Shown here one piece after another: positions 2 to 5,756 of a stretch of DNA of 5,771 nt (the first letter of the stretch is position 1; each line of letters opens with the position of its first letter). Both the position numbers and the translations under genes were made by a program. Under the pieces are notes generated by a model. The model saw only the letters and a list, made by a program, of their open reading frames with translations. It ran no database searches and was not told where the DNA came from. Source of the stretch: Nitrospinae bacterium RIFCSPLOWO2_12_FULL_45_22 (GTDB lineage: Bacteria > 2-12-FULL-45-22); contig MHDQ01000250.1 of NCBI GenBank assembly GCA_001803565.1, positions 1 through 5,771 on the forward strand, written 5' to 3'.

Positions 2-1231
2 CTGATAAAAGAGCATGGTAGTAAAGTCATATCACAGGTAACAGTAGAACAGGCCTATGGTGGGATGCGAGGGGTAAAAGGTCTAGTTTGTGATACTTCT
101 TTGGTAGAGCCTGACACCGGACTGGTTATTCGTGGTATCCCCATCCTAGAACTAACCGACAAGTTACCCGAAGAGATATTATATCTATTATTAACTGGTG
201 AGCTCCCGGACAGGGCAGCCCTCAACTCGCTCCAGTCCGAACTTAAGGAAAGGTCAGAGGTACCAGCCTATGTCTGGGATGTATTGAAGGCCATGCCGCC
301 AGACTCACATCCTATGGCCATGTTGAATACAGCCATCCTGGTAATGGAGAGAGAGTCTATCTTTCGGAAGCGATATACCGAAGGAATAAGGCGTGAAGAG
401 TATTGGGAAGTTATGTTAGAAGATTGTCTAACACTTATTGCCCGGCTCCCCGCCGTCGCAGCCGCCATCTATCGGCAGCGATACAATAAAGGGCCACGCA
501 TTCCTTCGGATAAAAAACTGGATTGGGGAGCAGATTATGCCCATATGACCGGTATCCCTGACCCAACGGGCAACTTTGCCAGGCTGATGCAGTTATATCT
601 TACCCTGCATAGCGACCATGAGAGCGGCAATGTCAGCGCCTTTACTACCCATACCGTAGGCTCTGCCCTATCAGATGCCTATTATGCCCTCTCAGCAGGC
701 CTGAATGGCTTAGCTGGCCCCTTGCATGGTCTGGCTAACCAGGAATGCCTGGGCTGGATCATCATGGTCAAAGAGAAATTTGGGAGGGTGCCAACCAATG
801 AGCAACTGGAAAAGTTTGCCTGGGAGACACTGAACTCGGGTAAGGTAGTCCCGGGTTATGGTCACGCCGTTTTGAGGATTACGGACCCGCGCTTTGATGC
901 CTTCATGGCCTTTGGCAAGAAGTATTGCGCTGATGACCCGGTATTCCAGCTTGTGGCAAAAGTATTCGATGTAGTGCCAGAGGTTCTTAAGCAGGTACAG
1001 AAGATCAAAGACCCCTGGCCCAATGTGGACGCTATCTCTGGCTCACTCCTGCATCACTTTGGCATGACCGAGTTTGATTACTATACGGTCTTGTTCAGTA
1101 TCTCCCGGGCCCTGGGTGTATGCTCCCAACTGGTAATCAGCCGGGGTATTCAATCGGCCATTGTGCGGCCCAAGTCCGTCACCACAGAATGGATAAAAAA
1201 GACAGTTGGGGAGCAGATTATGCCCATATGA
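2..1231 (+). CDS. gltA: Citrate synthase, eukaryote-like si type (5' end outside window)
   Basis: Condenses oxaloacetate with acetyl-CoA to citrate in the cytoplasm, the entry step of the TCA cycle. The frame is open to the window edge, and the 21 codons before the ATG at 65 already match the family (they end VEQAYGG before MRG), so that ATG is internal; by comparison with pig citrate synthase about 30 N-terminal residues are missing. Counting from the ATG at 65, the catalytic triad is present: H221 in GPLHGLANQE, H267 in PGYGHAVLR and D322 in PWPNVDAISG. The arginines of SRGIQ and VRPKS near the C terminus are also present. The whole sequence tracks mitochondrial citrate synthases, a type known from Geobacteraceae, rather than the E. 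coli hexameric type. The natural end, seen in the downstream copy, is TVGAA; here the duplication junction replaces the last two residues with EQIMPI and a TGA. That should scarcely affect the fold, so I expect an active enzyme. Confidence 0.95.
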   Translation: MIKEHGSKVISQVTVEQAYGGMRGVKGLVCDTSLVEPDTGLVIRGIPILELTDKLPEEILYLLLTGELPDRAALNSLQSELKERSEVPAYVWDVLKAMPPDSHPMAMLNTAILVMERESIFRKRYTEGIRREEYWEVMLEDCLTLIARLPAVAAAIYRQRYNKGPRIPSDKKLDWGADYAHMTGIPDPTGNFARLMQLYLTLHSDHESGNVSAFTTHTVGSALSDAYYALSAGLNGLAGPLHGLANQECLGWIIMVKEKFGRVPTNEQLEKFAWETLNSGKVVPGYGHAVLRITDPRFDAFMAFGKKYCADDPVFQLVAKVFDVVPEVLKQVQKIKDPWPNVDAISGSLLHHFGMTEFDYYTVLFSISRALGVCSQLVISRGIQSAIVRPKSVTTEWIKKTVGEQIMPI

Positions 1232-1888
1232 CCGGTATCCCTGACCCAACGGGCAACTTTGCCAGGCTGATGCAGTTATATCTTACCCTGCATAGCGACC
1301 ATGAGAGCGGCAATGTCAGCGCCTTTACTACCCATACCGTAGGCTCTGCCCTATCAGATGCCTATTATGCCCTCTCAGCAGGCCTGAATGGCTTAGCTGG
1401 CCCCTTGCATGGTCTGGCTAACCAGGAATGCCTGGGCTGGATCATCATGGTCAAAGAGAAATTTGGGAGGGTGCCAACCAATGAGCAACTGGAAAAGTTT
1501 GCCTGGGAGACACTGAACTCGGGTAAGGTAGTCCCGGGTTATGGTCACGCCGTTTTGAGGATTACGGACCCGCGCTTTGATGCCTTCATGGCCTTTGGCA
1601 AGAAGTATTGCGCTGATGACCCGGTATTCCAGCTTGTGGCAAAAGTATTCGATGTAGTGCCAGAGGTTCTTAAGCAGGTACAGAAGATCAAAGACCCCTG
1701 GCCCAATGTGGACGCTATCTCTGGCTCACTCCTGCATCACTTTGGCATGACCGAGTTTGATTACTATACGGTCTTGTTCAGTATCTCCCGGGCCCTGGGT
1801 GTATGCTCCCAACTGGTAATCAGCCGGGGTATTCAATCGGCCATTGTGCGGCCCAAGTCCGTCACCACAGAATGGATAAAAAAGACAG
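523..1888 (+). repeat. 683-bp direct tandem duplication within the citrate synthase gene
   Basis: Bases 523-1205 are repeated immediately as 1206-1888 with a constant offset of 683. Reading the two copies side by side I find no difference, and their translations agree from WGADYAHM to the TVG near the C terminus. Both ancestral breakpoints share short flanking matches: GGATAAAAAA (508-517 and 1874-1883) and GGAGCAG (527-533 and 1891-1897). The junction around 1201-1210 is a hybrid, GACAGT from the gene end followed by TGGGGAGCAG from mid-gene. The copy number can be expected to fall back by homologous recombination, which would restore the original gene end. An assembly misjoin would look the same from sequence alone. 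Confidence 0.95.
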
Positions 1889-1902
1889 TAGGAGCAGCAT
1901 AG
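1206..1902 (+). pseudogene. Duplicated C-terminal fragment of citrate synthase
   Basis: This is a second copy of the last ~225 codons of the citrate synthase gene, followed by what looks like the original gene end (TVGAA, then TAG at 1900-1902). It starts at WGADYAHMTG and keeps all three catalytic residues (GPLHGLANQE, PGYGHAVLR, NVDAISG), but it lacks the N-terminal part, about 175 residues or more, that forms much of the large domain. It lies one frame away from the upstream gene because 683 is not a multiple of three. In-frame ATGs exist at 1120, 1189 and 1228. Translation from 1120 or 1189 would add residues read from the wrong frame of the upstream gene, and neither ATG has a convincing ribosome binding site. 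The ATG at 1228 overlaps the upstream TGA as ATGA and would give a 224-residue protein. I call it a gene remnant; limited coupled translation cannot be excluded. Confidence 0.85.
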
Positions 1903-2119: not shown

Positions 2120-3322
2120 ATGAATATTGAAGCGATCAAAAAGGCGAAGGAGCATTTTGGCGGACTTCTTGAGGAACAACTGAGGCGGGTGGAGCAGATA
2201 AAGGCTGCGGGAGACTGGATTGACTATCAGACCCTTAAGCCGATCATTATCGGTATCCTCGGCGGGGACGGCATCGGGCCATACATAGCTAACGAGGCCC
2301 AGCGGGTCCTGGAGTTCTTGTTAAAGGATGAACAAAAGAGTGGTAAGGTTGAGTTTAGAATCATAGAAGGGCTAACTATTGAGAATCGAGCCGCGAAAAT
2401 GAAGCCCATTCCGGACGATGTTCTGAAGGAGATCAGGAAGTGCCACGTCACCCTGAAGGGGCCCACAACTACCCCCAGAAAAGGAGACCCCTGGCCTAAT
2501 ATTGAGAGTTGTAATGTGGCAATGCGTAAGGAGCTTGATCTATTTGCCAATGTCCGGCCAGTAAGGATCCCCAGGGAAGGTGTTGATTGGATGTTTTTCA
2601 GAGAGAATACTGAGGATCTCTATGCTCTTGGCAGCCAGGGGATCAATGTGACCGATGACCTTGCGGTAGATTTCAAGGTCATCACCACCCAGGGGTCGGA
2701 ACGGATTATAAGGATGGCCTTCGAATACGCAAAGAGAAGGGGGATCAACCAGGTAACCATTGTGACCAAGGCAAACGTGATAAAGACCACTGATGGCAAG
2801 TTCCTCAGCGTTGGTCAGCAGGTTGCCAGGGAATACCCTGAAATCAATTGCGATGACTGGTATATTGACATCATGACGGCCAAGCTGATTGATCCCAAGC
2901 GGCGGAATCAATTTAAGGTCATTGTCCTACCGAACCTTTATGGCGATATAATTACTGATGAGGCAGCGGAGATGCAAGGTGGAGTGGGGACTGCGGGCGC
3001 CGCCAATATTGGGAAACGCTATGCCATGTTTGAAGCTATTCATGGAAGCGCCCCACGTATGGTGGAGGAGGGTCGCGCACAATATGCAGACCCTGCCAGC
3101 ATGATCAGAGGTAGTGCCATGTTACTCAGCCATATCGGCTATGAGGAGCGGGCCAATAAGTTAGAAATGGCCCTTGATATCTGTGGCCAATACGAAAAAA
3201 AGTTAGTCATGACCGGTAGACCCGGGGGTGCAACCGGAAGGGAATTTTGTGATTATCTGATGGGAACCCTGCAAGACCCTGAGCTAAAGAGCAAGTGGCA
3301 GGGTTTTGTGACCGGCAATTGA
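2120..3322 (+). CDS. icd: Isocitrate dehydrogenase (isocitrate/isopropylmalate dehydrogenase family)
   Basis: Oxidatively decarboxylates isocitrate to 2-oxoglutarate in the cytosol. At 400 residues it is near the usual bacterial length. Visible motifs are GDGIGP (49-54); TTTP (116-119); the isocitrate-binding S130-x-N132-x3-R136 with R146 in NVRPVR, equivalent to E. coli S113/N115/R119/R129; FRENTEDLY with R161 and Y168; K217 in VTKAN; metal-binding D250, D276 and D280 (NLYGDIITDEAAE); and HGSAP at 308-312. The serine/asparagine pair favours isocitrate over isopropylmalate. The residues after HGSAP are R313-M314, not the K-Y of E. coli NADP enzymes nor the D-I typical of NAD enzymes, so the coenzyme is undecided. 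The clasp region after EDLY is about half the E. coli length. The start is fixed by AAGGGGG (2107-2113), 6 nt upstream; the nearby ATG at 2116 is out of frame and meets a stop after four codons. MDH follows after 23 nt, so co-transcription is likely. Confidence 0.93.
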   Translation: MNIEAIKKAKEHFGGLLEEQLRRVEQIKAAGDWIDYQTLKPIIIGILGGDGIGPYIANEAQRVLEFLLKDEQKSGKVEFRIIEGLTIENRAAKMKPIPDDVLKEIRKCHVTLKGPTTTPRKGDPWPNIESCNVAMRKELDLFANVRPVRIPREGVDWMFFRENTEDLYALGSQGINVTDDLAVDFKVITTQGSERIIRMAFEYAKRRGINQVTIVTKANVIKTTDGKFLSVGQQVAREYPEINCDDWYIDIMTAKLIDPKRRNQFKVIVLPNLYGDIITDEAAEMQGGVGTAGAANIGKRYAMFEAIHGSAPRMVEEGRAQYADPASMIRGSAMLLSHIGYEERANKLEMALDICGQYEKKLVMTGRPGGATGREFCDYLMGTLQDPELKSKWQGFVTGN

Positions 3323-3345
3323 CCAACCCACCATAGGAGGTCATT

Positions 3346-4272
3346 ATGGAAAAAAAGATAACTGTAGTAGGAGCTGGGCAGGTAGGTGGTACTACAGCCC
3401 TAATGTTAGCCCAGGAAGAGCTTGGTGATGTAGTTTTAGTTGATGTCGTAGAAGGCTTATCAGAAGGTAAGGCCCTGGATATTATGGAAGGACGGCCTAT
3501 TTGGGGTAGTGATGTAAAGTTGATTGGCACCGCAGATTATGCTGCTACGGCTGGCTCAGACCTGGTTATTATTACCTCAGGCATGGCCCGCAAGCCCGGT
3601 ATGAGCCGGGAAGACCTCATAGATGCCAATAAAAAGATCGTCGAAGGAGTAACCAAAGAAATTGCTAAACACTCCCCCAATTGTATCATCATTATGGTGG
3701 CTAACCCATTAGATACTATGACTTATCTGGCTAAGAAGATAAGTGGCTTCCCGAAGAATCAAGTCTTTGGCCAGGCAGGTATACTGGATACTGCAAGGTT
3801 TAGGACATTTCTGGCTATGGAGCTTAAGGTATCAGTAGAGGATATCCAGGCCCTGGTATTGGGTGGCCATGGTGACGAAATGGTGCCTCTAATTAGCTAT
3901 ACCACGGTCGCAGGCATCCCTATCACATTCTTTCTCTCCCAGGAACAGATCCAAAAGATCGCCCAGCGTACCCAAAAAGCTGGTGGTGAGATAGTAGCCC
4001 TATTGAAGACCGGTAGCGCTTATTATTCACCAGCAGCCGCTGCCGTACAGATGGCCGAGGCTATCCTAAAAGATAAGAAACGGATCCTTCCTTGTTCTGC
4101 TTATCTGGAAGGGGAATATGGCCTCAATGATATATATTTCGGGGTGCCAGTCAAGCTAGGCTCAAGGGGTGCAGAACAAGTAATTGAGGTAAAGTTAACC
4201 CCCGAAGAGCAAGAAGCAGTCAAGCGGTCAGCCGAATCGGTTCGGAGTAGTATAGCAAGCTTAAAGCTTTGA
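3346..4272 (+). CDS. mdh: Malate dehydrogenase, LDH-like (MdhC type), NAD-dependent
   Basis: Interconverts malate and oxaloacetate with NAD(H), supplying the oxaloacetate used by citrate synthase. The 308-residue length fits the LDH-like MDH group. Visible motifs: nucleotide-binding GAGQVGG (9-15) and acidic D33 at the end of the second strand, favouring NAD over NADP; the mobile loop [12 protein letters not shown] with R82 and R88 (the arginine at 82 marks malate rather than lactate specificity); N120 in VANPLD; D148 and R151 in ILDTARFR; and the proton-relay H175 in GGHGDEMV. All expected catalytic residues are present. A strong AGGAGG (3335-3340) sits 5 nt before the ATG. The gene starts 23 nt after the IDH stop with no terminator between, so the two are probably one operon; the icd-mdh pairing is also known in Geobacter relatives. 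Confidence 0.95.
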
Positions 4273-4293
4273 GCAGCAACTATAATAACTAAC

Positions 4294-4360
4294 GTCATTA
4301 GTCATTGACCAGGGTAGGTTATAGGGCTTTAAACTAGTGACTAATGACCAGTGACCAATG
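4294..4360. repeat. Inverted clusters of a TGACYAR heptamer in the mdh/malic enzyme gap
   Basis: On the plus strand TGACTAA, TGACCAG and TGACCAA run head to tail at 4338-4358, followed by a partial TGATG. On the minus strand TGACTAA (4304 to 4298) is flanked by the related TGGTCAA and TGACGTT. The clusters face each other: GTCATTAGTCA (4294-4304) is the exact reverse complement of TGACTAATGAC (4338-4348), with 33 nt between. An RNA could fold here, but there is no following T-run, so it does not look like an intrinsic terminator. It resembles the short heptanucleotide repeats scattered between genes in some bacteria. A regulator binding site is the other possibility. Confidence 0.5.
4305..4333 (+). 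promoter_or_regulatory. Possible sigma70-type promoter upstream of malic enzyme
   Basis: TTGACC (4305-4310, 5 of 6 to the -35 consensus) is followed after exactly 17 nt by TTTAAA (4328-4333, 4 of 6 to the -10 consensus). The pair lies between the two heptamer clusters and overlaps the left one. Found by eye only; matches of this quality occur by chance. Confidence 0.3.
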
Positions 4361-4363
4361 ATG

Positions 4364-4380
4364 TTCCCTATAATTGGGAA
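4364..4380 (+). promoter_or_regulatory. Perfect TATAAT -10 box inside a TTCCC/GGGAA palindrome
   Basis: TATAAT (4369-4374) is a perfect -10 hexamer, 41 nt before the malic enzyme ATG. It sits inside TTCCC-TATAATT-GGGAA, a 17-bp dyad whose arms pair at seven of eight positions. No good -35 lies at 17 nt; the best is ATGACC at 19 nt. A dyad over a -10 box is a common operator arrangement, so it could be a repressor site on a malic enzyme promoter. This is inferred from position alone. Confidence 0.3.
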
Positions 4381-4415
4381 TTTCTTTAACATTCTGGAGA
4401 GAAGGGAGAAAATAA

Positions 4416-5756
4416 ATGGAGAAGGTTACCGAGGAAGAGTTATTAGCTAAGGCTTATAAACCGGGTCAGGATGCCCTGAAATTCCATCCCTTTTACCAGG
4501 GGAAGATCGAGATAGCCCTTAAATGCACCGTCAGGAGCTTTGAGGACTTTGCTATCTGGTATACCCCTGGGGTAGCAGAATCCTGCAAGGTTATCCACAA
4601 GAATAAAGAGGCTGTGTATGATCAGACCAATAAATGGAATACCGTAGCCGTAATTTCCGATGGGACGCGGGTGCTGGGCTTAGGGGATATTGGCCCAGAA
4701 GCGGGTCTGCCGGTGATGGAAGGTAAGGCCTTATTATACAAGTACTTAGGGGGGGTAGATGCCTTTCCTCTATGCCTGGCCACCAAAGATCCTGACGAGA
4801 TAATTAAGGCAGTAAAATGGCTGCAACCCAGCTTGGGGGGTGTCAACCTGGAAGATATCAGCCACCCTAAATGCTTCTATATCCTGGATACCCTCCGTAA
4901 AGAAACGGAGATCCCGGTCTGGCATGATGATCAGCAAGGGACTGCTACTGTGACGCTGGCTGGATTAATCAATGCCCTTAAGATTGTGGGTAAAAAAATC
5001 GGTGATGTAAGAATAGCTATGATCGGGGCGGGCGCATCTAATATCCGTATTGCCCATCTCCTGTTTGCGGCTGGGGCCGACCCTAAGAAGATTATCATGG
5101 TAGACTCCAAAGGAATATTACATCCAGGCAGGACCGAGCTAAAAGAGAAGTTCAAAGAAAAATGGGAGATGTGCAATAAGACCAACGGAGAAAAGAAGAC
5201 TGGGGGTATTGCAGAGGCCCTGAAAGGTATGGAGGTATGCATAGCCCTGTCTACTCCAGGACCAAATACTATTAAGAAAGAATGGATCAGGGCTATGGCG
5301 CCAGACCCCATTGTCTTTGTTTGCGCTAACCCCATACCAGAGATCTGGCCCTGGGAAGTTAAAGAAGCGGGGGCAGCTATAATAGCTACCGGCAGGTCAG
5401 ATTTTCCTAATCAAGTTAATAATTCCCTCGGCTTCCCCGGGATATTCCGGGGCACCCTGGATGTAAGGGCCAAGACTATTACTGATGAGATGTGTATTGC
5501 TGCGGCCAATGAGCTGGCCAAATGTGCAGAGGATAAGGGTCTCAACCCTGAGTATATCATACCTAATATGGATGAATGGGAGGTCTTCCCACGGGAGGCC
5601 ACCGCTGTAGGGCTCAAGGCCATTGAACAGGGTGTTGCCCGCATAAAGCTCACCCGGGATCAGATATATCAAAGGGCCAGTACTATTATTAAATCTGCCC
5701 GGGCTAAGACCCAGCTTTTAATGAAAGAGGGCTTCATTGCCCCACCCCCGGAATAA
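4416..5756 (+). CDS. Malic enzyme (malate to pyruvate, NAD(P)-dependent), short prokaryotic type
   Basis: Oxidatively decarboxylates L-malate to pyruvate and CO2, linking the TCA cycle to pyruvate and acetyl-CoA. It has 446 residues with no C-terminal phosphotransacetylase-like domain, so it is the short form, unlike E. coli MaeB. N-terminal malic domain: YTPGVAE with catalytic Y49; SDGTRVLGLGDIGPEAGLPVMEGK-type block (81-104) ending in the likely catalytic lysine K104; metal-site E146-D147 in NLEDISHP; and HDDQQGTA (170-177) with D171. NAD-binding domain: GAGASN (204-209), D230 in MVDSKG, then STPGPNT, CANPIPEI and RSDFPNQVNNSLGFPG with the conserved asparagines. D230 is compatible with NAD but does not settle coenzyme choice, so I give no symbol. 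The start is supported by AGGGAG (4403-4408) 7 nt upstream. A 143-nt gap after mdh with promoter-like sequences suggests it can be transcribed separately. Confidence 0.92.
   Translation: MEKVTEEELLAKAYKPGQDALKFHPFYQGKIEIALKCTVRSFEDFAIWYTPGVAESCKVIHKNKEAVYDQTNKWNTVAVISDGTRVLGLGDIGPEAGLPVMEGKALLYKYLGGVDAFPLCLATKDPDEIIKAVKWLQPSLGGVNLEDISHPKCFYILDTLRKETEIPVWHDDQQGTATVTLAGLINALKIVGKKIGDVRIAMIGAGASNIRIAHLLFAAGADPKKIIMVDSKGILHPGRTELKEKFKEKWEMCNKTNGEKKTGGIAEALKGMEVCIALSTPGPNTIKKEWIRAMAPDPIVFVCANPIPEIWPWEVKEAGAAIIATGRSDFPNQVNNSLGFPGIFRGTLDVRAKTITDEMCIAAANELAKCAEDKGLNPEYIIPNMDEWEVFPREATAVGLKAIEQGVARIKLTRDQIYQRASTIIKSARAKTQLLMKEGFIAPPPE

Follow-up and report, generated by a model that had tools for sequence, protein, structure and literature searches.

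An exact head-to-tail tandem repeat was found in the citrate synthase gene at the start of the window, which is the whole of one 5,771-base contig (C250) of a 321-contig draft genome (3.67 Mb, 85% complete). In direct comparison, positions 523-1206 equal 1206-1889 exactly, with 684/684 matches at a shift of 683, which is far beyond chance. The repeat is read here, with a probability of about 50%, as an ordinary partial tandem duplication that is real and carried by at least a fraction of the DNA molecules sampled. An artefact of assembly is a strong contender at slightly less than even odds, and the real and the technical origin are nearly even. Either way the repeat is ordinary, a DNA duplication or an assembly error rather than a novel biological system, and nothing points to a function. 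The overall significance is little. If the repeat is real, it captures a tandem duplication inside a gene of an uncultured bacterium, and the gene is spared by the position of the junction in its last codons. If it is technical, it warns against a biological interpretation of exact tandem repeats in draft metagenome genomes until reads support them.

Geometry of the repeat and its junction

The repeat consists of two copies of a 683-bp unit, arranged head to tail, with 1 bp of microhomology in addition. The unit takes in half or more of a citrate (Si)-synthase gene of the PRK09569 type, namely its C-terminal ~228 codons. The features are as follows.

523-1205, + strand: first copy of the 683-bp unit; the exact match continues to 1206
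1206-1888, + strand: second copy of the 683-bp unit; the exact match continues to 1889
1191-1206, + strand: junction, GGATAAAAAAGACAGT (gene 3' end) joined to TGGGGAGCAG (gene middle), with 1-bp microhomology (T)
508-517, + strand: 10-mer GGATAAAAAA, the partner at the left boundary; the same 10-mer lies at 1191-1200 and 1874-1883

The sequence-only reading had described a tandem repeat without visible difference, which is correct to the base. The span that it gave, 523-1902, holds as far as 1889; positions 1890-1902 are the native 3' end of the gene and lie outside the repeat. Identical copies arranged head to tail, as a microhomology-mediated tandem duplication requires, are present.

The boundary sequences were compared directly (left GGATAAAAAACTGGATTGGGGAGCAG, right GGATAAAAAAGACAGTAGGAGCAGC, junction GGATAAAAAAGACAGTTGGGGAGCAG). 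The 10-bp in-register match sits 5 bp before the crossover, and the crossover itself shares a single T. Short homology is thus present at the junction, and it is weak in the strict sense. Among random 43-bp pairs taken at the same spacing from this genome, an in-register run of at least 10 occurs at a frequency of 1.5e-4, a statistic that was chosen post hoc, and an equally good local alignment occurs in 0.6% (p = 0.006). The in-register near-repeat together with the 1-bp microhomology argues for a real duplication; the post hoc choice and the p value of only 0.006 in the local-alignment test weigh against it.

The near-homology at the junction fits template switching. A DNA 3' end would have copied the 3' end of the gene (...GGATAAAAAAGACAGT), switched back 683 bp to the near-repeat GGATAAAAAACTGGATT and then copied the last ~228 codons a second time. 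The exact repeat, the junction sequence and its near-homology are seen directly, and the presence of this junction in cells and the template switch are inferred. Bacterial duplications have been proposed to arise by template switching at short homologies, and structural changes in E. coli are reported to have junction homologies of 1 to 30 bp (PMC3161906). The duplications in the E. coli Lac system (PMC3161906) are likewise direct, with a few bases of junction homology, too short for RecA recombination; in contrast to them, the present unit is much smaller (683 bp), lies inside one gene and was read from an assembly, and selection is not known for it.

The junction contains no Ns, unlike the 36 scaffold gaps examined, each of which holds at least 6, and this also supports a real duplication. 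With de Bruijn assemblers, an N-free repeated copy normally arises only when the junction is present in at least some reads. However, an exact repeat of 684 bp is longer than usual short reads and most insert sizes. If the data are of that kind, an assembly that runs through both copies without a break is suspicious.

The two copies of the citrate synthase sequence

The two copies and their overlap are read in the following frames.

2-1231, + strand: citrate (Si)-synthase, PRK09569 type, 5' end off the contig; PF00285 with E=1.1e-92; tail EQIMPI from the junction
1189-1902, + strand: truncated second copy, an open frame of 237 aa from the ATG at 1189, ending in ...TVGAA
1228-1231, + strand: ATGA, in which an ATG in frame with the fragment overlaps the TGA stop of the first copy (sequence reading)

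The first copy matches NF007128 with 539.8 bits over model positions 21-433 of 437, which exceeds the curated cut-off of 344 bits. Its frame ends with EWIKKTVGEQIMPI, followed by the stop. Since the junction affects only its last codons, the upstream copy remains nearly complete. It had been described earlier as an intact, full enzyme, and this stands for the visible part; the first ~20 codons are off the contig. Since the contig begins inside the gene, about 20 residues past the start codon of the relatives, intactness is only partly established. A second citrate synthase gene as the source of the repeat was considered and rejected, with none found elsewhere in the genome.

The replacement of AA by EQIMPI on the upstream copy, also claimed earlier, is seen in the translations, and the downstream frame keeps EWIKKTVGAA, ending at 1902 before its stop. 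In the fifteen relatives inspected, the stops lie at the AA position or within about 13 residues beyond it, which indicates that the downstream tail is the native end. The C-terminal tails of the same relatives differ freely, so the changed tail is probably harmless to citrate synthase.

The downstream fragment covers only positions 134-357 of the 357 in PF00285, with the first 133 profile positions missing, and it scores 343.9 bits against NF007128, just below the 344-bit cut-off. It would be expected to have no function. Translational coupling at the ATGA may be envisaged; the overlap is a coincidence of the 683 shift and alone is no sign of function. It is very improbable that the duplication is useful and maintained, with the fragment expressed (for example by re-initiation at the ATGA) or the changed tail of consequence. 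The fragment frame that stays open to the native stop and the ATG that overlaps the stop of the first copy are in favor of such a role. Against it, an open frame is simply what any exact copy of coding sequence would have, the duplication is absent in the relatives, the N-terminal part of the fold is missing from the fragment, and the tails of the relatives vary freely. A stable duplication in the lineage, in which an ATGA-coupled headless copy would assemble or compete with the full citrate synthase and so tune it, is more improbable still.

Assembly quality of the draft genome

Assembly quality was counted over 101 sampled contigs, which make up 1.06 Mb or about 29% of the genome. Identical sequences of 10-42 bp flank 14 of the 36 N-gaps flush on both sides, and random cuts would give 0.085%. 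Such identical unmerged flanks leave the draft genome with short duplications and gaps that are false. Similarly, some contig ends overlap unmerged by 46-53 bp. The same sample holds one other exact direct repeat above 100 bp, of 506 bp, on a second contig.

Example gaps, 6-35 N between identical 10-42 bp ends: L078:10799, L084:986, L092:10956, L095:477, L100:13469, L123:7924 and others
Contig C220 (L083), 4816-5321 and 5507-6012: copies of the 506-bp repeat, at a spacing of 691 and separated by 185 bp of different sequence

The C220 repeat duplicates the 5' part of a regulator gene, MerR-like by eye. Its left boundary shows near-homology too, GGTAACCA followed by one mismatch. This repeat may be a real rearrangement, a strain mixture or a misassembly. 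As controls, two single-contig genomes (400 kb examined) held no exact direct repeat above 90 bp, and related draft loci (366 kb) held none above 71 bp.

Related errors are present within the same assembly, in the form of the gaps with unmerged identical flanks and, as a candidate, the C220 repeat. These observations bear on the technical origin, in which the genome is single-copy and the second copy was made by assembly, either by concatenation of two overlapping contigs that share the segment or by a path on a chimeric library molecule. The unmerged gap and contig ends, the C220 repeat with its similar spacing and the shorter repeats in the controls all favor it, and the C220 repeat and the many unmerged overlaps also count against a real duplication. 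Both types of error are published: Ns placed despite an overlap are a described error of IDBA-UD and CLC, and the rare artificial concatenation of identical sequence over hundreds of bases is documented separately (Chen et al. 2020, PMC7111523). The present case resembles these errors in that a draft metagenome genome carries a perfect repeat hundreds of bases long, and this assembly also places Ns between overlapping ends; the repeat differs in being N-free, in having only two copies and in showing near-homology where they join.

That same near-homology would be unexpected under simple concatenation, and the N-free junction also speaks against an artefact. The false duplications that can be proven in the assembly reach 42 bp at most, and that error type leaves the 684 bp unexplained, a point in favor of the real duplication. 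No end overlap of note was found when the first 300 bases of the contig were compared with the other contigs.

Three origins had been offered from the sequence alone: a very recent event, identity kept by recombination, or an assembly error. This set is partly supported, and assembly error has gained weight through the rest of the draft genome and the published error catalogue (PMC7111523).

Age, relatives and neighborhood

For the first of these options, a very recent event, identity alone is insufficient. By our own estimate, with a rate of 2e-10 mutations per bp per generation, no difference between two copies of 684 bp would be expected for a few million generations, so identity is no proof of extreme recency. 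A recent origin is argued better from how unstable such a repeat should be under recombination.

A comparison with close relatives had been proposed as a check. All related loci examined are single-copy and carry no repeated fragment, which counts against a real duplication; a genome of the same family was not found for this comparison. In the one other genome of the same order that was compared, the best match is a distant homologue, 31% identical.

The genes on the contig all lie on the + strand. After citrate synthase, an isocitrate/isopropylmalate dehydrogenase-family (Iso_dh) gene, malate dehydrogenase and malic enzyme follow at 2120-5756. The complete set of four was absent nearby in the related loci with citrate synthase.

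A palindromic element at 1966-2096, between the citrate synthase and the Iso_dh gene, was considered as a mobile cause of the repeat and rejected; it lies near, yet at neither repeat boundary. It has no match in Rfam, and no RNA families were found. The element is about 131 bp long with 22-bp terminal inverted repeats, MITE- or REP-like and dispersed, with 53 matches in the genome at E<=0.01, the longer copies being 73-90% identical. It folds far better than its shuffles (z -4.7).
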